Of a DNA stretch of 64,000 bases, positions 2,807 to 64,000 are shown piece after piece; within the stretch, counting starts at the first letter, position 1; each line of letters opens with the position of its first letter. The notes beneath the pieces were generated by a model that had not been told where the DNA came from, did not search any database, and saw only the letters and a program-made list of their open reading frames with translations. The position numbers were made by a program, and so were the translations under genes. Origin of the DNA: a virus. Location: positions 20,018 to 84,017 of the IMG/VR virus record IMGVR_UViG_3300042367_000583, one strand, 5' to 3'.

Positions 2807-3334
2807 TTAATCACAAACTACCCGAAAACCAGTATTGCAGCAAGATTCTTCAAAATAGAGGTAACTAAGTTGTGCCGCACAACATCTATAGGAGTCGGTG
2901 TCAAATCCGCCCCCACGGGGAACCTTTTGACACCATTCCCAGACGTTGCCGTGCATATCGTACAATCCCCAAGCATTGGGCTTTTTCTGACCCACAGGAT
3001 GAGTTATTAATCCAGAGTTATCTTCGTACCAAGCGTAATCTTTTAGCTGATCGAAATCATTACCAAAGCTAAATAGGGTTTCTGTACCAGCGCGACAGGC
3101 ATATTCCCATTCTGAATTTGTAGGTAGGCGATAGTTTTTCCCTGTTATTCGTCTCAATTTCTGGTAAAAAGCTACGGCATTATCATAACTAACTTGTTCT
3201 ACTGGATTTTGGGGTTTGTTTATGAAATAAGAGGGGTTGTTTCCCATTACCTCTTGATATTGTTCCTGAGTAATGGGATATTTGCCAATTTTAAAGGTTA
3301 CATTCGGAATCTCTATCATTTCAATCTCAATCAT
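2807..3334 (-). CDS. FGE-sulfatase / C-type-lectin fold protein, possible DGR target
   Basis: 175 residues with the formylglycine-generating-enzyme (SUMF1, PF03781) hallmarks: KYPITQEQYQEVMG, NPVEQVSYDNAVAF, YRLPTNSEWEYACRAG, WGLYDMHGNVWEW, RGGGF and the terminal GFRVVCD. This fold is used both by enzymes and as a binding scaffold; in phages and cyanobacteria it is a common target of diversity-generating retroelements. The segment between RGGG and GFRVV is unusually rich in Tyr, Cys, Ser and Asp, with most codons ending in C or T at positions where relatives carry Asn, as expected of adenine-directed diversification. No reverse transcriptase is seen in the window. Ribosome site AGGAGTAAAAAA at the start. 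Confidence 0.88.
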   Translation of the reverse strand: MIEIEMIEIPNVTFKIGKYPITQEQYQEVMGNNPSYFINKPQNPVEQVSYDNAVAFYQKLRRITGKNYRLPTNSEWEYACRAGTETLFSFGNDFDQLKDYAWYEDNSGLITHPVGQKKPNAWGLYDMHGNVWEWCQKVPRGGGFDTDSYRCCAAQLSYLYFEESCCNTGFRVVCD

Positions 3335-50047: not shown

Positions 50048-50503
50048 TTATCTTAATATATCTAGCCCTCGATTTCTGATTTTTTGAGCAAGGTCTTTAT
50101 TAAATACTTTTGATTTTTTAATCACAGTAATCTGATTGCTTGGCCAGTATTCTAGCAGAAAATCAACGAGTTCTATTGAAGTTGTGTGTATTCTAGCTTC
50201 TTTGCTACATCCTTTTAGTAATTGGTAAAAAAGAAATAGTCCACTAAGCAGGTCTTTTTCAATTACCCAAAATACTAATTTAATTAATGTATTGCTAAGT
50301 CGCCAGTGTTTTAGAAGTTGGCATAGTTTTGTCTCTTCTAATTGCCAGTAACTGAAAAAATCCAAAACATTAGAGATTACTGGGTAGTCGCTTCTATTTA
50401 CAAAGTCAGATACTAGAGCATCGATTGCTTCTAGAGATTGACACATCCCGATAGATGCAATCGATAATCCCTCTAATTTATATCCTGAGATAATTTGTAG
50501 CAT
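50048..50503 (-). CDS. hypothetical all-helical protein
   Basis: 151 residues: SIGMCQSLEAIDALVSDFVN, ISNVLDFFSYWQLEETKLCQ, IKLVFWVIEKDLLSGLFLFY. Helical, hydrophobic core without a clear membrane span. No recognised family. It starts about 20 bases from the end of the CRISPR array and is read away from it; association with the array is possible but only positional. Confidence 0.65.
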   Translation of the reverse strand: MLQIISGYKLEGLSIASIGMCQSLEAIDALVSDFVNRSDYPVISNVLDFFSYWQLEETKLCQLLKHWRLSNTLIKLVFWVIEKDLLSGLFLFYQLLKGCSKEARIHTTSIELVDFLLEYWPSNQITVIKKSKVFNKDLAQKIRNRGLDILR

Positions 50504-50523
50504 GGTTTTGGAGTTTTGTTTTG

Positions 50524-50994
50524 TTTTCCTGCCTTAGTAAGGCTTAAGCTTAATTGCTTCGCCCACTGCTTAAATGCTTCCCAGTCGGTTTCATCGTTTC
50601 AATCCCTAATAAGGCTTAAGCTTAATTGTTTCATAAATGAGATTAGCAAGGAAAAATGGTGCTTAAGGTTTCAATCCTTAATAAGGCTTAAGCTTAATTG
50701 CTTCGATAACTAATGCCTATATCAAAGATGAAGATCAGCGTGTTTCAACCCCTAATAAAGCTTAAGGTTAATTGCTTCAAGATCAGAAAACCCCTCACAG
50801 TTATCAGTACGCGTTTCAATCCCTAATAAGGCTTAAGGTTAATTGCTTCGATTTCGATAAAGAATCAGCGCAGGAGGAATTACTTGTTTCAATCCCTAAT
50901 AAGGCTTAAGGTTAATTGCTTCAATTTGGATCGCTGTACCCAAAAATCGAATTCGAAGTTTCAATCCCTAATAAGGCTTAAGGTTAATTGCTTC
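50524..50994 (-). CRISPR. CRISPR array, 7 repeats of 37 nt and 6 spacers
   Basis: Repeats at 50524-50560 (degenerate), 50596-50632, 50668-50704, 50742-50778, 50813-50849, 50886-50922 and 50958-50994. Plus-strand repeats begin GTTTCAATCCCTAATAAGG and end TTAATTGCTTC. The minus strand ends GGGATTGAAAC, the usual crRNA-sense 3' end, and the decayed repeat is at 50.52 kb, so the array is read on the minus strand from about 51.0 kb, like the nuclease gene just upstream. Spacers are 34-37 nt (35, 35, 37, 34, 36, 35). Three repeats have AAGCTTAAT and four AAGGTTAAT. Spacers are all different and have no obvious match elsewhere in the window. Confidence 0.96.
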
Positions 50995-51091
50995 CCATCT
51001 TCCTTTAGCCCTTGATGTAAAAGGGTTTCGGGTAAGGATTGCGCCCCATTCGCTAAAATTTAGTTTTCAAGGTTCTGCTTGGTTCAAAAAA
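50995..51091 (-). other. candidate leader/guide-RNA scaffold between nuclease and array
   Basis: 97 gene-free bases between the nuclease stop codon and the first (youngest) repeat. On the minus strand GGGGCGCAATCC (about 51035-51046) recurs from the end of the nuclease gene (about 51135-51146), and GAACCTTGAAAAC resembles the repeat end. By analogy with TnpB omega-RNA and Cas12 tracrRNA genes, the region could encode the scaffold RNA or the leader. This is inference. Confidence 0.35.
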
Positions 51092-52975
51092 TCAGGCTAG
51101 TAAATCCCAGATCGTAAGCTGGTCGGGGTTTCTGGGGATTGCGCCCCGTGATTTTTTGGAACTTCGCTTAGATGCCTTATTAGGTAAGGCTTTCGGGTTA
51201 TTTATGCCGTGGCTATCCTCGCACGGCTGAGGTGGGGCGGAAGAAAAAATAAGGGATTGCGAGTCATTCTCGGACTGAGTGAGGGTGCGATTCCCTTCCT
51301 GCTTCATCTGCTTACTAATCGAGTGTTCGGCATTCTCTATCGGCGCGTCCCCAATAGACTCTTGATTTGCATCAAGATCAGGCGTGAATTCCCTCGCTAA
51401 ACCGAGGTATTTTCCAATCATAGAGACAGGAAACTTGATTAAAGAGGCGATCGCTCTTAAAAACTCATCTCGTAAGCCACGAATCAGAATATTTGCGGCG
51501 GCATTCTGATCGGCGTGAGCTTCGTAACCACAGCTAACACATTTAAACTTCGATTGACTAACGCGGTTAGCTTTATCAATATTACCACAATTGAAGCAAG
51601 TTTGTGAAGTATGTTTAGGATTAACTCGGATCACTTTTCTGCCACGTTCGTTAGCTTTATTTTCAATAAATGTGCGAAGTTGTCCAATAGCATTATCAAG
51701 TAATGCCTTATTTAATCCAGACTTTCTTTTTTTGCCATTTTGTTTATAACCATCGCCGTCTTCTCTTTCTTTAGGTTTTGCGGCGGCTGTCATGTTTTTT
51801 AGTTTTAAATCTTCTAAAATAACTGATTGATATTCGCTAGTTATTTTATGGGCTAATTGAGCATTTCTCCCTTTTCGCTGACGAGCAATTTTCTCGTGAA
51901 CACGAGCGAGTTTAGCGTAGGTTTTACGCTGATTATTAGAGTTATCTTTTTGTCTAGAAGCTTGACGCTGTAATCGGTTAAGTCGCTTTTTCTGAATTTT
52001 TGCGTAGCGTTTAGCTTCCGATTGTCTCCCTAAGTCATCGGTAAATATTGCCACAGCACCCATATCTAAACCAACACATTTATCGGATTCTTTATAGATC
52101 GTGTCGTCAGTTTCGATGGTTAGCTGTAAGTAATATCCCGTCGCTTTACGAGTAATTTTAGCCATTCGGGGAGCTTTCCCTTGCAATCGATCAATCCCCC
52201 GTACTTTTAGTAATCCTATCTTTGAGGAAACGATAACTCCATTAGATTCAATCTTTATAGTTTCAGGTTGACCGTTAACAAGAGTCTCTACCTTATCCCG
52301 TCTTCCTTTAAACTTAGGAATCCCACGGATACCTTTTTTAGCGGCATCATAAGCAGGTTTAATCACACTTCTAAAAAAGCCTTTTTTAAACTCTGTTTCA
52401 ATTTCACCGATAAATTTTGCTGTATCTCCTCGAAAGTAAAAAGCAAGTTTCTCCCTGTTGAGATAATTAACAGCATCCTCGCCAATATTTTCGGCATTCA
52501 TGAAACGACGGATAGGAATAGCATCTAAGGGAGTATATTCTTTTCCGTTGCTTGTCTTTTTAAAATAGGCGATTTTACAGCAAGGATTGCTGATTAAAAG
52601 TTCTTTCTCTTTATCTTTAAGGGTTTTAAACTCTTTTTCGTCGTAATCCCCAGAATAACTTAACTTCCATATTTCAGGGCTAAACTCATCGAATTTATGT
52701 TTTTTGCGATAATATCTTTGTGTTGACTCCTCTTTGAGTGCGATTGAAAGATTCCATAGCAACTTACACGCCGCTAAAGAACGATCAATCTCTGTGATTT
52801 GTTCTTTAGTAGGATGTATCTTAAATTCCAAGACTTCCATAGGAGATTTTTCTTCTTTTTTCTTAGGAGTCTTTTTGACAATACTAAACCTTAGATGATT
52901 ATCTTTAGAACTAGGTGTTTCTTGAATTTGGTACTCATCTACTTTAAGTTTGACTTTACTTTTTTTGGCTTTCAT
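51092..52975 (-). CDS. TnpB/Cas12-like RuvC nuclease next to CRISPR array
   Basis: 627 residues. N-terminal basic extension (1-45), TnpB-like start MEVLEFKIHPTKEQITEIDR and AACKLLWNLSIALKEES, then a RuvC-like core: D304 (CVGLDMGAVAIF), a long Arg/Lys helix (KRLNRLQRQASRQK), E388 (VILEDLKLKN), a zinc finger C460-x-x-C463 ... C479-x-x-C482 (TCFNCG, CVSCG), and D489 (HADQNAAANI). All catalytic and zinc residues are intact. It is longer than typical TnpB (about 400) because of the N-terminal extension, an insert after residue 95 and a roughly 125-residue C-terminal tail with low-complexity sequence. No TnpA or transposon ends are seen. Directly upstream of a same-strand CRISPR array, it resembles a type V-U (TnpB-derived Cas12) effector. 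Alternatives: a plain TnpB of an IS605-family remnant. It has its own promoter. Confidence 0.88.
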   Translation of the reverse strand: MKAKKSKVKLKVDEYQIQETPSSKDNHLRFSIVKKTPKKKEEKSPMEVLEFKIHPTKEQITEIDRSLAACKLLWNLSIALKEESTQRYYRKKHKFDEFSPEIWKLSYSGDYDEKEFKTLKDKEKELLISNPCCKIAYFKKTSNGKEYTPLDAIPIRRFMNAENIGEDAVNYLNREKLAFYFRGDTAKFIGEIETEFKKGFFRSVIKPAYDAAKKGIRGIPKFKGRRDKVETLVNGQPETIKIESNGVIVSSKIGLLKVRGIDRLQGKAPRMAKITRKATGYYLQLTIETDDTIYKESDKCVGLDMGAVAIFTDDLGRQSEAKRYAKIQKKRLNRLQRQASRQKDNSNNQRKTYAKLARVHEKIARQRKGRNAQLAHKITSEYQSVILEDLKLKNMTAAAKPKEREDGDGYKQNGKKRKSGLNKALLDNAIGQLRTFIENKANERGRKVIRVNPKHTSQTCFNCGNIDKANRVSQSKFKCVSCGYEAHADQNAAANILIRGLRDEFLRAIASLIKFPVSMIGKYLGLAREFTPDLDANQESIGDAPIENAEHSISKQMKQEGNRTLTQSENDSQSLIFSSAPPQPCEDSHGINNPKALPNKASKRSSKKSRGAIPRNPDQLTIWDLLA

Positions 52976-53002
52976 GGATCGACCTTCCTTTATTCTTATC
53001 TA

Positions 53003-53032
53003 AATCTACCATAAGCTTTATAGAAATGTCAA
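53003..53032 (-). promoter_or_regulatory. promoter of the nuclease gene
   Basis: TTGACA (53027-53032) and TAGATT (53003-53008) with 18-base spacing on the minus strand. Almost identical to the promoter at 53455-53484: both share AAATCTACCATAAGC and TAGAAATGTCA. Confidence 0.68.
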
Positions 53033-53041
53033 GTAAGAAGT

Positions 53042-53410
53042 CTAAAGATTTTTTGGGATACCAGTTCCCACATCAGAACCTATAGCCCAACCCTTATAAA
53101 AGTTAAAGGCGGTAGTATCAATATAGAGGGGAAAACCTAAAGCTTCCCAGCAGTATAATAGTCTTAGTACATCAACAGTCTGAACCGTATAATTTGATCC
53201 TGATTCAGTGATGATAAATTTTTCAAAAATCTCTGGGGCAACTAGAACAGAACAATAGTTAGTGTCGTTAAATTTACCAGACTTTTTGGCTAATTCAGAA
53301 GTAATTGCGATCAAAATCTCTTTTGTAAGTAATCTTTCTTGCAATATATTGCAACTATCTAAGTTAGTCCAAGCGGTAAATTTAACATAATTAGATCGGG
53401 AATTAAACAT
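53042..53410 (-). CDS. hypothetical protein
   Basis: 122 residues: SNYVKFTAWTNLDSCNILQE, EILIAITSELAKKSGKFNDT, NYCSVLVAPEIFEKFIITES, DVLRLLYCWEALGFPLYIDT. Mixed alpha/beta with a Trp-Glu-Ala motif. No recognised family. Its promoter duplicates that of the nuclease gene, so both should be co-expressed, making it a candidate accessory to the CRISPR locus. Confidence 0.68.
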   Translation of the reverse strand: MFNSRSNYVKFTAWTNLDSCNILQERLLTKEILIAITSELAKKSGKFNDTNYCSVLVAPEIFEKFIITESGSNYTVQTVDVLRLLYCWEALGFPLYIDTTAFNFYKGWAIGSDVGTGIPKNL

Positions 53411-54583: not shown

Positions 54584-54621
54584 AGTGTCCTATGCTGGCA
54601 GTCATTGTTAGATTGTTGATA

Positions 54622-54853
54622 GATTGTAGATAAAGGTATTAACAATAGAACCCTTGATGTATATAGCTTCTAGACTTTGTTGATACTGTTGACACTATTC
54701 CCCGATATTATTTTTTTATGTTCTTACTGCTGAGGCTGTCTTTCCCTTTTACCCTATTTTCTTTTTTTCCTCTATACAGTATCAACGGCATCAACAAAGT
54801 CTAGAACCTTTACAGGGTAACGGTTTTGGTTGTAGATAGGGTTATTTACAATC
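54622..54853. repeat. dyad-bounded repeat element R4 (232 bp)
   Basis: Bounded by dyads 54622-54646 (GATTGTAGATAAAGG / TATTAACAAT) and 54828-54853 (GGTTGTAGATAG ... TTTACAATC). Internal inverted repeat CTAGACTTTGTTGATACTGT on the left against its complement at 54783-54808. Nearly the same length as R2 (44232-44464). Lies between the NlpC/P60 and Rha genes; no coding sequence inside. Confidence 0.88.
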
Positions 54854-54886
54854 TATCTACAATCCAACTTCCCACGGTATTGCCTC

Positions 54887-55018: not shown

Positions 55019-55453
55019 CTATGATTTTACCACTCCCGAAACAGGTACTCGATAAACCAGTACAGGCGGGTATTCATGAATATAGGTCTTAATCACGCCA
55101 TTTATTGAGTCAGCATGAATATACTCCCCATCTCCTAAATAGATGCCTACATGACCATTTATACCTGATTTACGGAAGACTAAAATATCTCCTTTATCTG
55201 GACTACCTTCTACTCTTGTCAAGATACCCTCAATAAATCTCACTAAGAAATTGTTCCGGGGAATCCGTTCGTAGTTTTCAATGATGAAATCGTAAGGTAA
55301 AAACCCGACTTTAATCCCCACGCCAGCAATAAATCCTACACAATCGGTTCCAATCCCTTTAAGCGATTGTCCATGAAACCAAGGAGTACCGAGCCATTCA
55401 AGAGCTTCAGCAACGATTTGATTATCCAAAGAATCGTTTTTTAGTTCGTTCAT
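55019..55453 (-). CDS. NlpC/P60 tail peptidase
   Basis: 144 residues. Catalytic Cys in GIGTDCVGFIAGVGIKVGF, then GHVGIYLGDGEYIHADSING with the two His. Typical of the gp14-type tail-tip peptidase of GTA-like tails, which opens peptidoglycan at DNA entry. It overlaps the tape-measure gene by 32 bases. Usual length for this class. Confidence 0.93.
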   Translation of the reverse strand: MNELKNDSLDNQIVAEALEWLGTPWFHGQSLKGIGTDCVGFIAGVGIKVGFLPYDFIIENYERIPRNNFLVRFIEGILTRVEGSPDKGDILVFRKSGINGHVGIYLGDGEYIHADSINGVIKTYIHEYPPVLVYRVPVSGVVKS

Positions 55454-58400
55454 TTTGTGTATTTTCCCGTTCTTTCAATTGATTTAAACTATACCCCATG
55501 TCATTCCGTGATTCTACAGTCACGTTATTGGTGTTATTAATTACCAAAGACTGATTAGAGCTATTAGTATTTGAAGTTGTGGAGTAATTAGGTTTACCCC
55601 CGACAAATCCCCCATTAGCATAGTTCTTAATAGGAGCATTATTTCTGTACTCTAGATATGCTTCTGTTTCTTTAGGGGTAAGAACCAATTCGCCTTCATT
55701 AGCTACGATCAAGCGAGGTTTTCGGCCTCCCGACATTGCTCGTTCACGCTGAAAAGCTGAAATGATATTTTTCTCTATCGGAGCATTGGCATCTCCAACT
55801 TTCCCGCCATCACTAAATAAGCTGAATCCTGTACCTAGAGAAAAGGCAGAAGCCGGAGCAGAAGCAAAGCTAGAGGCTCCTATACTACCAAGTGACCCAA
55901 TCGAACCAAGTCCGCCTAGTCCCCCACTAAAAATCCCTGTTATTCCACTAAGTAGCCCGTTAAATAAGCCACCGCCGCCACCGCCACCAAAAATAGAAGA
56001 AAAGATGTTACCTACTGGTTTGAAGATACTGTTTAGAGCATTAGTGAAAAAGTTGCCTACTGGCCCGATGATTGCATTAAATACTGACTCAAATGCCTGA
56101 GTTATTGGTTTAGTAAAACCATCGATAGCAGAAGTTAAAGCATCGATAGCAGGCTTAGTAATACCCTCGACAAATTTTGTCATGATATTTAATCCAAGAC
56201 TACTAAAAGCCGATCCTATTCCTTTTCCTTCTCTAATGTCAGAGAAAAAGCTTTCAGCTGCGCCACGATTCGGAGAGGCATCTAATGCTACTCGCTCTAA
56301 TCTTAATTCTGCAAGTTTTTCCCATTCCGAGCGGATATTAGCCACATATTCAGCGTATTGTGGTAAGTCTTTGTAAGGTTCTAAATAATCCTCTAATTCC
56401 TCTTTTTCTTTTTGTAGGCTAATACGTTCGGCAAGGATAGCAGAATCATCAAATAAAGTCGGTCGAGACTGAAATTCTAGTTGCGTTCTTTGGATAGTTA
56501 AATCATTTAACCGATCACGGATACTCCTGACTGTATCTCTGGTTTTTCTAAATGATGCTTCTAAGGTAGCTACTCCCTGATTTTTGCCTAATTGTTCAAT
56601 CGCTTGATCAAGAATTGCTACCTGTTCTTTAGCTAATTCAGCGTTTTTAGCTAAAACCTCGATACTATCTGTTATCTCTTTGACAAATTCAGGGGGAAGA
56701 GCTATACCTTTTTCTTGAAATTCTCCTAAGATTTCTTTTATTGCGTCGCTGTATTTTTGTTGAGCGTCAGCATTTAAAAGTAAAGTCCGTCGCTGGTCTT
56801 CTAGTGATTCAATCTGAGAGCGATATTGTCGAGAGACTTCCGTGGCACTCTTGTTAATTTCTTCTTGTACTGTCAGATACCCTTTAGAGTTGATGGTCAA
56901 ATCAGCGACATTTTCGGAAGCATCTCTTAAAGTACGTTCTAATGCACGGGCATCTTCCTCTTGCTGCCGTCTAAATTTTATTGATCTGTCAAGAGCATTG
57001 TTTAGATTTTGTTGCTCTTCTAGCCGTCTTGAAAACTCCTCAGCGTTTTGGTTGGCTGTTTCAGCGTTGCGAATTTGATCAGCCGCTGCGCCAAGATTAC
57101 CCGTAGGAAGATTGGGAACGGGAGGCAAATCAGGACCCTGGAAGTTAATCGGATTGTCTTTAAGAACCGGTGGTAAATCGGCATCCCAGAAATTATCTTG
57201 ATTTTGATTAGGTAGAGTCGGTAATTGGGCTATAGGTGGAGGACTACTAAATTCTGGACCGCCTTTTCCTTCTTTTGTTTCTTCTTTTGTTAAAACACGG
57301 GCAGGAGAAGGGTTAGAGGTGGAGTCTTTAATGGATTGGCTAATTGCATTAGTAGCATTAGTTATTATTTTTCGATTATTTAGTTGATTGCCGTTAATAT
57401 TTGCATAAGCAGTTACAATATATTCTTTCCCATTAATGTTTACCAGTCCAACGTTACCAATAACTTTAGAGTTATTTCCAATTTTTCCGCCGATTTCATT
57501 ATTATACTTAAAATTTCTTGTTTGTCTCAGAGATTGTTCAGCTAATTGACTTGCAGGATTTTGATTTTTAATTAAAGACTGCATAGCTAACGTTACGTCT
57601 TGTGCTGTTGAAATGTTTGGAGTTCCACTGCCTGGTATATTTAAATACCTAGAAATAGTAGTGTTTTTATAACCTTCTTTTCTGGCTAATTCTGTAGCTT
57701 TGGTTAGCCCACCTAGCCGATCAATTAAAACATTAGTTGCCGTATTATCTGACTTTTCTAGCATTAGCTGTACTAGCTGTTCAACTGTTTTAACTTGATT
57801 GGCTTTTAATTGTCCGTGTGGATCAACCAAAGGCAATTTTATGGCGATAGCGTCTTTTAAGGAAAGTTTTCCGCTTGTTATTTCTTTGGCAATCAAATCA
57901 GCAATAATAACTTTAATTGTACTAGCTGGTGACGCTGGGGGTGTTTGAGCGTTTTTAGAATATACAGTTTTTCCGCCAACTTCTTGAACTAAAACAGATT
58001 GAATATTTTTTGGTAATCTGTTGGTGATTTGTTGCTGAACTGATGGAGAAGGGTTAGGGGTGGAAGTTGATGGAGTGGGTAAACCGCCTTGATTTCTTCT
58101 GATTTGTCGAATACGGTTTGATGCTCCGCTGTTAGCAGGATTGCCGTCATATCGCAGTGCGTCCAATTCGGATTGAGTACGGGGAGCATTGAGTTGATAT
58201 TTTCGTAAAAACTGCTCGTAAACCTTTAACAGGTCTTCCATCCGCTTCATGCCTTGCCCGGGGTAATTAGCCCCTGGAAAAGATGCCCATTCTTTGCGGG
58301 TTGCGTTAATTACCCCACGAATATCTCCTTTAAAAAGCTCGTCTAATCCACCTCTAAATAAAATACGGCTTAATGCGACTAAATCTTGAGAGGCAGGAGA

Positions 58401-61400
58401 AAAATCTTTTAATCCTAATTTCGCTTTTTCTTCATCCCATGTAAAATCCATAATCTGGTATCTTCCAGATGCCGATGAAGTGGTCGATCCAAACGGGATT
58501 CTTTGTCGTGGATGGTCTGCAAAAGAACTAAATTGTCCATGTCCAAAAAGAGTGTTATATCCCTTATTTGGCATATTGAAAGTACCTTCTGCGTAAGCAA
58601 TAATATCAAGAAAGGCTTTGACGCGAGGATTGTTTAAATGCTGAGATAATTCTTGACCGCGTGGTGTTAACCCCTTGGGAATTGAAGACGACTGCGGCGG
58701 CGGTAAAAACCCTCCCCCATTCCACACAGGAGCAGGGGTGAAATTACTAGGTGCTGGTAGTATCAAACCTTCCTTAGCTTTTCTAATTGCCTCAGCAGTT
58801 TCCTCTATACTTTTTACTAAGTCTTCTCCAGAAGTCTTGATATTTGGGGGAATAGCTATTAACTCAGAATTGATTAATTTAATCGGTTCTGGAAGTGTAT
58901 TAAGATTTGTGACAATATCCTTGATTGATTGGGGAATAAAGCCTAATTCTTTATTGGTTTGTCGGATTAAATCAGCTAGAGTACGATTGAGGTCTTCCTG
59001 AGTCCGTTTAATATCCTCAATCGTTCTTAGTCTATTTCTTTCAGCGTCTTGCTGTTGCTCTTGTAGATTACGGATATTTCTTAGGGTAGAGATATAGGAA
59101 GTTTCTATCTCCTCGGTTCGGGATTGGAAGGTGCGTCCGCGACTGGCAAGGTCAGCTTGGCCCTGTACAAATTCTAGGAAAATGTCCCCTAGTTCTTTAC
59201 CAGCGTCGCTTGTACCGGGTATTAATAAACGGTTTTTAACTTGCTGTACCCTGATTCTATCAGTCGTATCCAGTAACTGATTTTGGGCATTTAAGAGGTT
59301 CTTATCGAGTTCCCTGACTAAATCAATGTAACTTTCAGATAGGGAACGATTTTCTCTAAAAGCTGACAGTTGAGCATCTTCAATCTGTCTTCTATAATCT
59401 TCAATCTGACGATTAAAGTCGATTATCTGACGGTCAAGGTTGCGGTAATAGTCTTGTATTTGTTCTTGCTGATCTCTTAAAGATAGTTCGGTTTCAGCTA
59501 TTTGCTGTGTGATATTTGCAATAGCTGTTTTTACTGCTAAAGGATCATCTACGTTTAATACTAATTTTTCTTGCTCTAAGGCTAATTGATTATAAAGAGC
59601 CGCTAAGTTTATCTTGGTTTGTTCCAGTCCGTAGCTAATATTTTGACTGGAGGAGGTTTTATTAGCTAGATTAGTGAGTTGTTCTGCTTTAACAATTTCT
59701 CCACTAGCTTGTTTTTCTTGTATTTGTCTTTTCTTTCTTTCGACAATAATCTCTCGACTAATTTGCTGAATTTCTCTCTCAGCGTTTAAAATATCTCGTC
59801 GAGCGGTTGCGTATTCTTTAGCCTGATTTAAAATATTTCTTAAAGCGGCGTTATCTTTTAGGTCAGATTCGTACTGATCCATTATTTGCTGAATAGCATC
59901 AGGAGAGAGTAAATTTTCAGCAATTGCTTCACCAAAGCTCGCTACATTTAGCTGTTTTAAGTCTTCTTTAAAGTAAGTGCTTAAAACTTTATTGGCAGAT
60001 TTAGATAGCCTTTCGTTTAAAGTATTAGAGATAGAGTTAGCTGAATTTTCTAAAGTGGCGATACGCTCTTTAGCAGTCTGTAAGCTTTCTTCTTGAACTT
60101 TAACATTAAACTGAAATTCATTAATTTTCCCTGATGCAAATTGTTGATTTAATCCAATTGAACGACTTAAACTATTTCCTTCATTGGCAAAATTAGCATT
60201 AGCTCTTGTTCTTATAGCAAGATCAAAGGCAACTTGTAATTTTCTATATTCTTTTTCTTGGTCTTTCAAGACTTGTAGATAATCTTGTTCCGCTTTTTTT
60301 AAGTAACCAATTATAGTCACGAGGTCTTTTTTACGTTGTATGTAAGCAATGTCAGTTATATCTCTATTCTTAAAGCTTTGCTCTAACGATGCTAACGCTA
60401 TCTCATATTGCTGAAGGTCGGCAGTAATTCTTGACCCAACGGGACCTAACTGTTTATTAATTAGCTCCTGTTCTCGCTTCATTAAATTCTGCTCTTGCTG
60501 GTTAAATTCAGATACAGATCGGTCGTTTCCTTCTGTGCTTGCAATTGTTCTTTCTGCTCTAACTAAAGCTAAATTATTTCTGATTTCTTGTAATTCAGAT
60601 GAAAATTGTTTGCTACCTGAAAAATTAGATAAAGTGTCTTGATATTCTTTGAGATTTCCGACTCCAGTAGCCAGAGATTTATCAATGTTTTCTAGTCCTT
60701 GTCGTAATTCTAATAGTGACATAAGCCATTTAGAATTATAAACAAGCCCTAGTGTTAGAACATTAAAAAACTTTTCTCCTCCAGACAATTCCATATCAGG
60801 CAAAAAGCTTGTTAAGCCTTTGCGATTACTGTTATCGGTTTTGTTTTGCCAAACATCAAGAGCTTTTTTAGACTCTTCTAGGGTTCTTACAGCTTGTTTT
60901 AGTTCTTCGCTACCAGCATTTAATGCGTTATAAACAAATTGAATACCAGTTATCACCGCAGTAGGGATAGCCAATGCTTTAATTAATCCTATTCCTGCTA
61001 AAGTAGCAAGGTTTATAGATACTTTTAATTTACCCATGGCTGTAGCTGTAGATAGAGATGCTACTCCGGCAACTTGTAAGGATGCACTCATAGCAGCGCT
61101 GGCAACGGCTCCTAACCGACCCGCTGCCGCAAATTGCATGACTGATTTTCCTAAGAATCCCATGACTGACAGTAACCCTGCGGCTCCCACTGATGCCACA
61201 GTCCCTAGATTGTCATTCAAGGTACTCAAGACGGCATTTAATGCCTGTAAAGCAGGGTAAGCGGCTACTCCAATTTTTTCCCCTAACTGCATTTGAAGCT
61301 GTTCGGTATTGTTCTGGAATCGAGAGATTTCCGATTGTAAAGTTTCGGTAGAAAGAGAAAGACCTCCGGCACTCATCCGTTTATATTCAGCCGCTAACCG

Positions 61401-64000
61401 AGGTAAAACATCTTGTACTAAGAGATTGCCTGCTGATGCTTGTTGATAAAATTGAGCAGTGGTCAGCCCTATTGATCGGGCGGCTACATTTAAAGCGTCG
61501 TTTAACCCTCCTGACTCGCTCAATTGCTGTGTGAATTCTTCAACGGAAACAACAGCTTTAGAGGCTATTTGCCCGATAGCTCTAAAAGATTCAGCTTGTT
61601 GTTGGGCATTGGTTTGTCGCGCTGCTAATGCCTCTTGGAATCCTTCAAAAATATTATCTGCCTGCGCTTGTAGTGGAGAATCAGTAGTAATTAATTTGAA
61701 TCTGCTATAAGCAATAGCGGATTCTTTAAAGGATATTCCTAATTTGTCAGCCCTTGCCACTAAAGCGTCAAGAGATTGTTCTACGTTGCCTACACCGGCA
61801 AGATTTAAATTTAATTTAATTCTTTGTAGCTCAGTAAAAGCAAGTAAAGAATCAGTAACAGCTTGTTGAATCCTAAAAGGAATATCGTCAATAGCAAAAA
61901 GTAGAGGTCGCAATAAAAATTCTGCTCCTTTGAAAAGAGCAAATCCCCCAATTGCCGCCATAGCACCTTTACGAAGATTGATCATACCTCCTGTAGCGGC
62001 ATTAAGTTCTTGGTCGAGAGTTCTGAGTGCTTTGCCACCAACCGAGAGGAAATTAATAAATCCGTCCGCTTGGGCAATAGCAGCTTTTAGTCCGCTCACA
62101 ATGCCGTCTGTAAAGCCATTAGAAACGCCCGCTTTTTCAATACTATCGAGAGCGTTAAAAATGTTGTCTCGTTTTTTATTCCAGTCGTCAAGAATTTCTT
62201 CTCTTGTTGTTTTTGGACGAGCGATGACGGTAGCTCGCTTCATCACTTGAAAAGCGCGGGGAGAAGCGAAAATTCCCGTGTTCATCGAGCCTTGAATCTC
62301 GTTGATAACCGCTAGGCGTTCCCCTCGGTCTAGTCCCATTTCTTTAACAGCTTGAAGAATCGCTTTTCGGGCTTCTTTTGACCTCGTCCCGACAAAAAAA
62401 GTAAAATCGCTTACCTCTTTATCGAATTGAGTCTCTAGCCTTAATCCGAAGCGAATATGACGCGCCCCTAACGCTAATCCTTCATAAAAAAACCGCATTG
62501 CTTTCATCGCTTTTTTAGATGGCGAAGCATTCCCCAATCCCTTATTTGTTGCATCAACTATTTCAATTGCAGTTTGATAGGCTATTCTTTTGGCATCGTC
62601 GCTGTTTACTCCTATTTCTAAACCTTTCTCAAAATTATTGGCTCCTGCTTTACCAGCAACAAACATTAGTTCTGACATATCAGCGCCGATTGATTTAACA
62701 ATTGTTCGCAATTTTGACTGTTCGTCAAGGAGTAATGCGCTTAACTCAAAAAATACATCTTTTTTCTGTTTGCCGCTAATTATAGATTCCCAAGCTTTAT
62801 ACAACCTTTCAAATTCTGCAATGTTTTGCTTAAGGCTCCCTGGTATTATTCTTTCTTGTGCCATTTTGTCATTGCCAAGCATTTTATCAAAATCACTAGC
62901 ATCAGGTTTGTTTACTAGAATAGTGTCATGCAATTCTACTCCTTTCTGCGAAGCTAGTTCTATTACATCATTTTCAAAAGGTTTGGCGGTATGGCGATTA
63001 TCTCCCCCTTGATTACTCCACCCAAAAGCTCCTGCTCCCGTTAAAAGAAAATCGTCCCACAATTGTCCTTCTACACCATAAGTGAACTTATCTTTCGGTC
63101 GTTCACCTATTTTATGTTTTTTGAAAAATTCTGGAATATTTACATCTTTTAAATATTCGCGAGTTTCATGATAGCGGCCTTGCCCACCTCCACGGTATTC
63201 CCCAGTTTTGTCATAGTGGCTGTATTCACTTGCACCACGTCCAAAGGAAGCTAGGCTGTCACCAGGATGGAGAAACATTTTATCGGGATTAAATAACCCT
63301 TCTAAAGCTACTGGCTCAAAACCTCCGTAATTATAGACCGCCAATCCTGTTTCTGGTTGTGTTCGTGGAAAAGCGTTTCCTTTCCAGACACCGTCTCCAA
63401 TGAATTTATTAGATGCGTTTTGATGCCACAACCCGTAAATAGGATTGACATTGCTAGAAATATCATCAGGTCGCATCTGAGATTCAAATTCTTGCCTTAA
63501 TCCTCTGTCTTTATTGCTATTAGGATGTAAAGCTTGATAACCATCTTCTAAAATACTTTCTAGATGTTCTCTTTTGGCATAAATTAAAAATTTTGCGTCT
63601 TGTTTTTGATTAAGTTGCAATCGTTCATTTACGTCTTGAAGAAACTTATCAAAAAATTGTACATACAATTTTGCTTGTTCTTTTGTTCCTATTTCAAGCC
63701 CTCTTATCAAATTTCTACCCGCTTCTTTACCTTTCCAAGATGGTGAAGCATTCCCCAGTCCTTTATTTGTTGCGTCGATAATTCCAATTGCAACATCTAA
63801 AGCGTATTTTTCGCTATTATTATTTTGTAATCCAATATTTAACCCCTTAATATAATTTAACCCAGACTGTTTGCCATCACTGGAAAACATCGAACTAATC
63901 GCTTCAAGGTTTTTTGCGAATACTGGAACGCCAGCACTTAAAGAAGATGCAATAACTTCAATGAGTTTGCGTCCGTAAATATTGTACTTTTCTTCTATAT
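55422..64000 (-). CDS. tape-measure protein with GH104 and beta-lactamase-like domains (5' end beyond window)
   Basis: The open frame continues past the right edge. Counting from the ATG at 63890 (2822 residues; residues upstream of it are also open): two copies of a DATNKGLGNASPS segment near residues 40 and 450 flank an unidentified domain; a TIGR02675-type tape-measure N-terminal region lies near 650-900; long coiled coils follow. About 1748-1905 matches lambda R-type GH104 muralytic enzymes: RVKAFLDIIAYAEGTF with catalytic Glu1768, FADHPRQRIPFG, SASGRYQIMDFTWD, DFSPASQDLVALS. About 1950-2195 has class A beta-lactamase-type motifs: Ser1990-x-x-Lys1993 (ASTIKV), Ser2047-Asp-Asn (EKSDNTATN), Lys2136-Ile-Gly. 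A glycine-rich stretch and a basic tail end the protein (LVLTPKETEAYLEYR). Determines tail length and probably helps breach the wall. Confidence 0.95.
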   Translation of the reverse strand, partial: IEEKYNIYGRKLIEVIASSLSAGVPVFAKNLEAISSMFSSDGKQSGLNYIKGLNIGLQNNNSEKYALDVAIGIIDATNKGLGNASPSWKGKEAGRNLIRGLEIGTKEQAKLYVQFFDKFLQDVNERLQLNQKQDAKFLIYAKREHLESILEDGYQALHPNSNKDRGLRQEFESQMRPDDISSNVNPIYGLWHQNASNKFIGDGVWKGNAFPRTQPETGLAVYNYGGFEPVALEGLFNPDKMFLHPGDSLASFGRGASEYSHYDKTGEYRGGGQGRYHETREYLKDVNIPEFFKKHKIGERPKDKFTYGVEGQLWDDFLLTGAGAFGWSNQGGDNRHTAKPFENDVIELASQKGVELHDTILVNKPDASDFDKMLGNDKMAQERIIPGSLKQNIAEFERLYKAWESIISGKQKKDVFFELSALLLDEQSKLRTIVKSIGADMSELMFVAGKAGANNFEKGLEIGVNSDDAKRIAYQTAIEIVDATNKGLGNASPSKKAMKAMRFFYEGLALGARHIRFGLRLETQFDKEVSDFTFFVGTRSKEARKAILQAVKEMGLDRGERLAVINEIQGSMNTGIFASPRAFQVMKRATVIARPKTTREEILDDWNKKRDNIFNALDSIEKAGVSNGFTDGIVSGLKAAIAQADGFINFLSVGGKALRTLDQELNAATGGMINLRKGAMAAIGGFALFKGAEFLLRPLLFAIDDIPFRIQQAVTDSLLAFTELQRIKLNLNLAGVGNVEQSLDALVARADKLGISFKESAIAYSRFKLITTDSPLQAQADNIFEGFQEALAARQTNAQQQAESFRAIGQIASKAVVSVEEFTQQLSESGGLNDALNVAARSIGLTTAQFYQQASAGNLLVQDVLPRLAAEYKRMSAGGLSLSTETLQSEISRFQNNTEQLQMQLGEKIGVAAYPALQALNAVLSTLNDNLGTVASVGAAGLLSVMGFLGKSVMQFAAAGRLGAVASAAMSASLQVAGVASLSTATAMGKLKVSINLATLAGIGLIKALAIPTAVITGIQFVYNALNAGSEELKQAVRTLEESKKALDVWQNKTDNSNRKGLTSFLPDMELSGGEKFFNVLTLGLVYNSKWLMSLLELRQGLENIDKSLATGVGNLKEYQDTLSNFSGSKQFSSELQEIRNNLALVRAERTIASTEGNDRSVSEFNQQEQNLMKREQELINKQLGPVGSRITADLQQYEIALASLEQSFKNRDITDIAYIQRKKDLVTIIGYLKKAEQDYLQVLKDQEKEYRKLQVAFDLAIRTRANANFANEGNSLSRSIGLNQQFASGKINEFQFNVKVQEESLQTAKERIATLENSANSISNTLNERLSKSANKVLSTYFKEDLKQLNVASFGEAIAENLLSPDAIQQIMDQYESDLKDNAALRNILNQAKEYATARRDILNAEREIQQISREIIVERKKRQIQEKQASGEIVKAEQLTNLANKTSSSQNISYGLEQTKINLAALYNQLALEQEKLVLNVDDPLAVKTAIANITQQIAETELSLRDQQEQIQDYYRNLDRQIIDFNRQIEDYRRQIEDAQLSAFRENRSLSESYIDLVRELDKNLLNAQNQLLDTTDRIRVQQVKNRLLIPGTSDAGKELGDIFLEFVQGQADLASRGRTFQSRTEEIETSYISTLRNIRNLQEQQQDAERNRLRTIEDIKRTQEDLNRTLADLIRQTNKELGFIPQSIKDIVTNLNTLPEPIKLINSELIAIPPNIKTSGEDLVKSIEETAEAIRKAKEGLILPAPSNFTPAPVWNGGGFLPPPQSSSIPKGLTPRGQELSQHLNNPRVKAFLDIIAYAEGTFNMPNKGYNTLFGHGQFSSFADHPRQRIPFGSTTSSASGRYQIMDFTWDEEKAKLGLKDFSPASQDLVALSRILFRGGLDELFKGDIRGVINATRKEWASFPGANYPGQGMKRMEDLLKVYEQFLRKYQLNAPRTQSELDALRYDGNPANSGASNRIRQIRRNQGGLPTPSTSTPNPSPSVQQQITNRLPKNIQSVLVQEVGGKTVYSKNAQTPPASPASTIKVIIADLIAKEITSGKLSLKDAIAIKLPLVDPHGQLKANQVKTVEQLVQLMLEKSDNTATNVLIDRLGGLTKATELARKEGYKNTTISRYLNIPGSGTPNISTAQDVTLAMQSLIKNQNPASQLAEQSLRQTRNFKYNNEIGGKIGNNSKVIGNVGLVNINGKEYIVTAYANINGNQLNNRKIITNATNAISQSIKDSTSNPSPARVLTKEETKEGKGGPEFSSPPPIAQLPTLPNQNQDNFWDADLPPVLKDNPINFQGPDLPPVPNLPTGNLGAAADQIRNAETANQNAEEFSRRLEEQQNLNNALDRSIKFRRQQEEDARALERTLRDASENVADLTINSKGYLTVQEEINKSATEVSRQYRSQIESLEDQRRTLLLNADAQQKYSDAIKEILGEFQEKGIALPPEFVKEITDSIEVLAKNAELAKEQVAILDQAIEQLGKNQGVATLEASFRKTRDTVRSIRDRLNDLTIQRTQLEFQSRPTLFDDSAILAERISLQKEKEELEDYLEPYKDLPQYAEYVANIRSEWEKLAELRLERVALDASPNRGAAESFFSDIREGKGIGSAFSSLGLNIMTKFVEGITKPAIDALTSAIDGFTKPITQAFESVFNAIIGPVGNFFTNALNSIFKPVGNIFSSIFGGGGGGGLFNGLLSGITGIFSGGLGGLGSIGSLGSIGASSFASAPASAFSLGTGFSLFSDGGKVGDANAPIEKNIISAFQRERAMSGGRKPRLIVANEGELVLTPKETEAYLEYRNNAPIKNYANGGFVGGKPNYSTTSNTNSSNQSLVINNTNNVTVESRNDMGYSLNQLKERENTQNERTKKRFFG

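Follow-up and report, generated by a model that had tools for sequence, protein, structure and literature searches.

A type V-U2 locus of clustered regularly interspaced short palindromic repeats (CRISPR) has already been published in a cyanophage, vB_AphaS-CL131 (PMC6293099). The available text of that report describes a V-U2 effector beside an array, with no other cas genes. We found the same layout in IMGVR_UViG_3300042367_000583, an 84,017-bp virus sequence from IMG/VR, of which we analysed positions 20018-84017 (64,000 nucleotides, hereafter the window). The effector of CL131 is 36.5% identical to that of the window over 73% of the query, and its repeat is unrelated. One of the ten CL131 spacers was matched (4 mismatches), the trans-activating CRISPR RNA (tracrRNA) was reported absent and gene regulation was suggested, as far as the available text goes (PMC6293099). 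V-U2 systems on cyanophages are therefore a known group. What appears to be new from our comparisons are the targets, their flanking motif, the likely provision of spacers by the host, another V-U2 system that is allelic to the first, and a spacer directed at the effector of the latter; the first four, together with a candidate anti-repeat inside the effector open reading frame (ORF), also distinguish the family from CL131 as described in that text.

The closest described cellular locus is the c2c8 locus on plasmid p1 of Microcystis aeruginosa NIES-2481, with an effector 89.7% identical to that of the window and a near-identical repeat and leader. It differs in having 23 repeats and in residing on a 147-kb plasmid, which has the CRISPR unit alone in common with window positions 40001-64000. 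The CRISPR system of phage ICP1 is of subtype I-F. Like that of the window it is phage-encoded, and in the accounts available its guides are directed against a small integrating host element (the PLE satellite). The window differs in carrying a single-effector V-U2 system without cas1 and cas2, and the Microcystis elements discussed below are candidate satellites at most. Mini-CRISPR arrays of Sulfolobales viruses also have a leader and spacers by which related viruses target each other, but lack cas genes in the available text (PMC6858448), whereas the window phage has an effector and a spacer matching the CRISPR effector gene of a rival. The CRISPR loci of huge phages, V-U variants included (PMC7162821), resemble the present one in their compact arrays, host-like repeats and targeting of other phages. 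No host spacers against CRISPR-bearing phages are reported in the text available for them; here, host type I-B spacers match the record at 32 places (≤5 mismatches), which also points to Microcystis as the host.

Taken together, the sequence comparisons make it likely that the window comes from a Microcystis phage with a type V-U2 (C2c8) CRISPR system, which would carry host-supplied spacers aimed at competing elements and rival phages (Table 1). By family models the effector is C2c8, type V-U2: Cas12u2 was its best PADLOC model of 20 (1e-166), and the NCBIfam model of C2c8 (NF038192) scored 465.7 bits, above its cut-off of 350, versus 187 bits for the guided TnpB model. IS605 Pfam domains and a TnpB fold were also detected. 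The three RuvC residues and the four cysteines (CxxC...CxxC) align with solved TnpB/Cas12 chains and are invariant across the eight proteins compared, one b-type effector (see below) among them; that alignment numbers residues one lower, the first codon being cut. A structure prediction was set aside (mean predicted local distance difference test score of 40). The predicted role of C2c8 is RNA-guided DNA binding or cleavage. The preliminary description of this DNA, a type V-U locus on a phage with seven repeats on the same strand 97 nt downstream of an intact TnpB/Cas12-type nuclease and no visible Cas1, Cas2 or transposase, was confirmed in its coordinates and residues and can now be narrowed to V-U2. 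The Cas1, Cas2 and Y1 transposase (Y1_Tnp) families had no match in the whole 84-kb record; the serine (IS607) transposase was not searched for.

Table 1. Features of the V-U2 locus and its flanks, in window positions.
Feature	Position	Strand	Observation
C2c8 (type V-U2, Cas12u2) effector, 627 aa; RuvC D304/E388/D489, zinc finger	51092..52975	-	Assigned by family models
ORF tail	51092..51415	-	Reduced synonymous change; probably overlaps a guide RNA (tracrRNA/omega-RNA-like)
Candidate anti-repeat CCTAATAAGGC	51174..51184	-	Complementary to repeat positions 18-28
Leader	50995..51091	-	Between effector stop and first repeat
Leader 12-mer GAACCTTGAAAA	51064..51075	-	Common to host type I-B leaders
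Second short anti-repeat candidate CAATCCTTA, in leader	51033..51041	-	No better than shuffles
CRISPR array, 7 repeats and 6 spacers	50524..50994	-	Repeats of 37 nt each; spacers of 35, 36, 34, 37, 35 and 35 nt
Repeats	50958-50994, 50886-50922, 50813-50849, 50742-50778, 50668-50704, 50596-50632, 50524-50560	-	Last repeat (50524-50560) degenerate, 7 mismatches
Spacer 99 (second from effector)	50850..50885	-	Matches the gene for the b-type V-U2 effector in sibling phages, 1 mismatch
Spacer 25 (distal; variant forms in other phage arrays)	50561..50595	-	Matches element-like stretch of Microcystis chromosome G037, 5' GTT
122-aa gene	53042..53410	-	Borders the V-U2 slot on one side in sibling phages
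151-aa gene	50048..50503	-	Borders the slot on its other side in several siblings (others: 95-aa gene)

Relatives of the effector occur in 17 IMG/VR loci (90-99% identical) and in one Microcystis genome contig. C2c8 exceeded the cut-off in three of the 386 sampled cyanobacterial genomes. Since the arrangement of effector and array recurs in these loci, one plasmid and one host contig, it is not an accident of assembly. Nineteen loci (the 17 from IMG/VR, NIES-2481 and the window) hold 12 distinct arrays with 102 distinct spacers. Spacers common to several arrays are mostly distal, and effector-proximal spacers differ, a pattern of addition at the leader end. For example, the arrays of L006, L011 and L015 all terminate with spacers 37-38-39, and spacer 45 and the last spacer, 64, are common to L007 and L008/L009. 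Spacer 25 is terminal in the window and in L003/L017, but fifth of seven in L010/L018.

We searched 100 of the 102 spacers of this type, V-U2a (30-45 nt; two outside this range were omitted), against a 2.7-Mb pool, with up to seven mismatches. Matches were found for 37 spacers and for none of the 100 reversed or 100 shuffled controls. The best matches carried a 5' GTN flank in 26 cases (GT background 4.8%, binomial 3e-26). The spacer search that the preliminary description had proposed was thus productive for two of the window's six spacers (25 and 99) and for the shared motif of the family. By place, 29 of the matched spacers fall in small Microcystis elements, a count inflated because the elements entered the pool via V-U2a spacer matches (at BLAST E-values of 6.4e-4 or better, so that the matches themselves are not due to chance); two fall in the element-like stretch of G037, five in sibling phages (spacers 4, 22, 54, 86 and 99), and one in a host gene. 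The target of spacer 23 is an rRNA-methylase gene of the SpoU family, present in 12 of 12 Microcystis genomes, and spacer 25 matches G037 with 5 mismatches in its window copy and 3 in its L003 variant. In further searches, 93 of the 102 spacers (43, then 50) were run against 12 Microcystis genomes, 43 searched joined had no match among isolated phages, and 38 searched joined gave one match among plasmids.

The targeted elements are plasmid p1 of NIES-2549 (6,987 bp) and related contigs of 7.6 kb (G039), 8.8 and 9.2 kb (G034), and 16.6 kb (G032). A tyrosine integrase was present in the three elements scanned, and NIES-2549 p1 encodes a DUF3987 primase/helicase that shares 32% identity with a primase-like protein of the phage. 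We saw no structural genes among the element proteins scanned, the scan covering part of the ORFs, and an IMG/VR search with one 169-aa element protein returned no relatives. A 50-nt stretch common to elements and phages was considered as evidence of a satellite and dropped: it consists of heptamer repeats and a ribosome-binding site, and the heptamers also occur in the host chromosome.

Sibling phages carry a second V-U2 system (b-type), which the preliminary description had missed, along with the target of a spacer it quoted and the RNA that the ORF tail probably contains. The b effector (561-567 aa) is 35% identical to the a-type (PADLOC Cas12u2, 416 bits) and has its own array, with a repeat, GTAACAATCGGCTTGACTTGTTAAGTAGATTGCAAG, unrelated to the a-type repeat. 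It occupies the same slot beside the 122-aa gene in G019, G020 and G021, and both systems stand in tandem in G006/G007. Contig G024 has a b-like effector and G025 a broken relative. Eleven of the 29 b spacers had a match (≤8 mismatches; none when reversed), all inside the elements, although b spacers played no part in choosing these. Their flanks were ATN in 6 of 11 cases and never GTN (0/11).

The target of spacer 99 lies at the 3' end of the b effector gene and adjoins the tracrRNA-like anti-repeat of the b system. All six examined contigs containing that part of the gene match; three (G006, G007 and L084) carry an identical b array and are probably one phage, which leaves four independent cases. 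The earlier remark that some spacers read as open peptides proved a real clue, as the peptide of spacer 99, DFDKESAQEELL, occurs letter for letter near the end of the b effector protein. The 5' flank of the site is GTC in five contigs and GCT in G019. Over the last 384 nt of the gene, the sole differences between G019 and G020 are the two adjacent bases that turn GTC to GCT, and the b anti-repeat pairing is kept (-42.9 vs -43.0 kcal/mol). This single case is suggestive of escape from spacer 99. A broader scenario, to which we give somewhat less than even credence, is that two allelic V-U2 systems compete for one slot in one phage family and fight directly. The a-type array of the window phage would target the b effector gene at the point where it adjoins the tracrRNA anti-repeat, and one or more b-type phages would have escaped through a change of two bases in the protospacer-adjacent motif (PAM), with the pairing intact. 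The two systems would also protect the phage from the same small satellite-like elements, drawing their spacers from two different host adaptation machineries.

The origin of the spacers is suggested by the arrays of the host. Their repeat, GTTCCAATTAATCTTAAACCCTATTAGGGATTGAAAC, differs from the phage repeat at 6 of 37 positions, and the repeat ends are alike, as the preliminary description had noted for cyanobacterial arrays; the 5' ends of the two repeats differ. In G030 these arrays adjoin cas8b, cas7b, cas5b, cas3, cas6, cas4, cas1 and cas2. We had assigned them to type I-D from the GTN motif and rejected this, since PADLOC gives Cas8b/Cas7b/Cas5b, i.e., type I-B, with a Cas1 fitting the I-D model. 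Host I-B spacers matched the pool in 106 of 432 cases (none reversed), with GTN at 62 of the 106. The leader 12-mer is exact in five of six host I-B leaders, and all of its 33 occurrences in a 2.75-Mb pool (overlapping loci counted twice) fall in V-U2a or host I-B leaders. Phage spacers 30, 40 and 45 have 0-2 mismatches to spacers of host I-B arrays (plasmid spacer 20 has 6); for the three phage spacers, with host loci L215 and L217, this could reflect repeated sampling of one protospacer or exchange between arrays. GTN is also given as a type I-D motif in the available text of published work, so the motif alone does not name the supplier; the leader and the repeat name host I-B. Since motif, 12-mer and similar repeats are common to the host I-B arrays, the spacers were probably supplied by the host.

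The same likeness underlies the strongest alternative, that the phage array guides the host type I-B Cascade and has no need of C2c8. The similar repeat, the GTN motif and the 12-mer agree with it, as the preliminary description had anticipated in proposing a mini-array that hijacks host Cas proteins. So does contig L020 of Microcystis sp. LSC13-02, where V-U2 and I-B repeats are joined. In this contig (1070-8377) the c2c8 gene is split by another TnpB gene, and a V-U2 leader with two V-U2 repeats continues directly into an extended type I-B array (56 repeats altogether), whose first spacers match the phage family of the window; the junction may be a genuine fusion of arrays or may have arisen in assembly. 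Nevertheless, we regard this alternative as unlikely. The array has its own effector, and eight of the nine V-U2a effector genes read through were intact, the ninth (L012) having a stop in the tail only; the interrupted host copy in L020 is the exception. The 5' end of the repeat departs from that of host I-B, and the b system, with its unrelated repeat and no GTN among 11 flanks, matches the same elements. Hence it is probably spacer uptake, rather than interference, that uses host I-B proteins.

A further explanation, to which we give still less weight, is that the host adaptation machinery adds spacers to whichever array has a suitable leader, so that the phage array is a functionless by-product and its effector a domesticated or decaying TnpB. 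Spacers common to host and phage arrays would fit this, as would the matches of both to the elements. However, inert phage arrays would be expected to match the phage family at a rate similar to that of host arrays. On five phage records we found matches for 2 of 78 phage V-U2a spacers (86 and 99) and 0 of 29 V-U2b spacers, compared with 59 of 431 host I-B spacers (Fisher 0.004 and 0.04, respectively). On five element sequences the counts were 29/78, 8/29 and 27/431 (Fisher vs host I-B, 6e-12 for V-U2a, which is selection-biased, and 7e-4 for V-U2b); all these Fisher values are guides, because the spacers of related arrays are not independent. The invariant catalytic residues, and the convergence of two V-U2 systems with different flanks on the same targets, also argue for function. 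An ordinary IS605/IS607 TnpB beside an unrelated array, the stray TnpB of the preliminary description, would account for the TnpB fold and the IS605 domains, but is very improbable given the lack of a Y1 transposase match in the record, the C2c8 score (466 bits vs 187), the association with arrays in 19 loci, the turnover of their spacers and plasmid homology that, over window positions 40001-64000, is confined to the CRISPR unit.

The last 109 codons of the V-U2a effector genes (n = 9) showed fewer synonymous differences than the body (0.052 vs 0.135) but more amino-acid change (0.098 vs 0.071), and fewer variable columns (18/108 vs 177/510, Fisher 1e-4). In L012 and L013, a divergent phage clade, the effector gene stops at codon 603 of 627, past the nuclease domains, as if the protein tail mattered little. 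The V-U2a tail is thus probably RNA first and protein second, as expected for an effector descended from TnpB. In the b system, the tail of the effector ORF contains a near-perfect 28-nt anti-repeat, 146-173 nt before the first repeat, with a duplex energy of -43.0 kcal/mol (0 of 60 shuffles as low). The a-type candidate, CCTAATAAGGC, ranked first among ungapped sites in 8 of 11 loci (exceptions L004, L012 and L020) and by energy gave the best duplex in L002 (2/60 shuffles as low) and L003 (5/60). The best duplex lay elsewhere in L012 (15/60) and L020 (33/60). Candidates at roughly the distance seen in the b system also occur in CL131 and in G248, a host V-U2 locus (15/60 and 4/60 shuffles as low, respectively); in a separate ungapped test of the CL131 stretch, 0 of 200 shuffles were as good. 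When repeats were swapped between loci, the own repeat was the best partner in four of six rows (L002, b, CL131 and G248). Rfam gave no match at E 0.1 or better over 50400-53100. A consensus fold of 11 tail-plus-leader sequences gave two-sided changes in 3 of 104 pairs, none in the anti-repeat hairpin, and lends no support.

These results suggest how a system with its own effector, guides and host-supplied spacers might work. The Cas4-Cas1-Cas2 machinery of host I-B would add spacers to the phage array at the end facing the effector. Processing of the array transcript would involve a guide RNA of which the 3' end of the effector ORF forms part, and C2c8 would bind or cut DNA flanked by GTN in competing elements and rival phages. 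Interference would protect the hold of the phage, or its lysogen, on the cell, and selection would remove spacers matching the phage's own family. Besides the dependence among related arrays and the route by which elements entered the pool, several results weigh against this account. GTN was absent at 11 of the 37 best matches, and no target was found in the pool for 63 of the 100 spacers, including four of the window's six. Host spacers also match the elements, so the pattern may partly reflect sampling by the host machinery. The window's best duplex lies away from CCTAATAAGGC (15/60 shuffles as low), the regions of the window and L012 do not pair best with their own repeats, and the host V-U2 locus G180 (L265) shows no anti-repeat (33/60 shuffles as low). 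Finally, according to the available text of PMC6293099, it has been proposed that V-U effectors lack the size needed for CRISPR RNA-dependent cleavage; binding by C2c8 without cutting is possible. A phage system with its own effector and guides against rivals or plasmids, the first of three possibilities raised in the preliminary description, nevertheless remains the best supported, given the V-U2 effector, the non-random, motif-flanked protospacers and the targets in mobile elements and a rival gene.

Other features of the window lie away from the locus. The Rha and NlpC genes are separated by nested inverted repeats (54607-54868), 39 and 48 nt long, which are possibly an insert resembling a miniature inverted-repeat transposable element. 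A 2822-aa tape-measure protein (55422-63890) includes a lysozyme-like part and, beyond it, a stretch that we take from its motif to be like a serine beta-lactamase or penicillin-binding protein, with no named model match. A small protein at 2807-3334 is presumably formylglycine-enzyme-like, its C-terminus resembling the variable region of a diversity-generating retroelement; one ungapped scan of the record found no template repeat for it.

In the available text of the open PMC literature, none of the guide RNA, PAM, target set or spacer source of V-U2 systems has been assigned. The family of the window offers testable answers to each: a GTN flank, a guide RNA in the ORF tail, small elements and a rival effector as targets, and host I-B adaptation as supplier. 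A spacer against the CRISPR effector of another phage, together with a variant in the population that destroys the motif, would represent CRISPR turned naturally against CRISPR in a cyanobacterium that forms blooms, and it opens the use of single-effector CRISPR by phages to direct testing.

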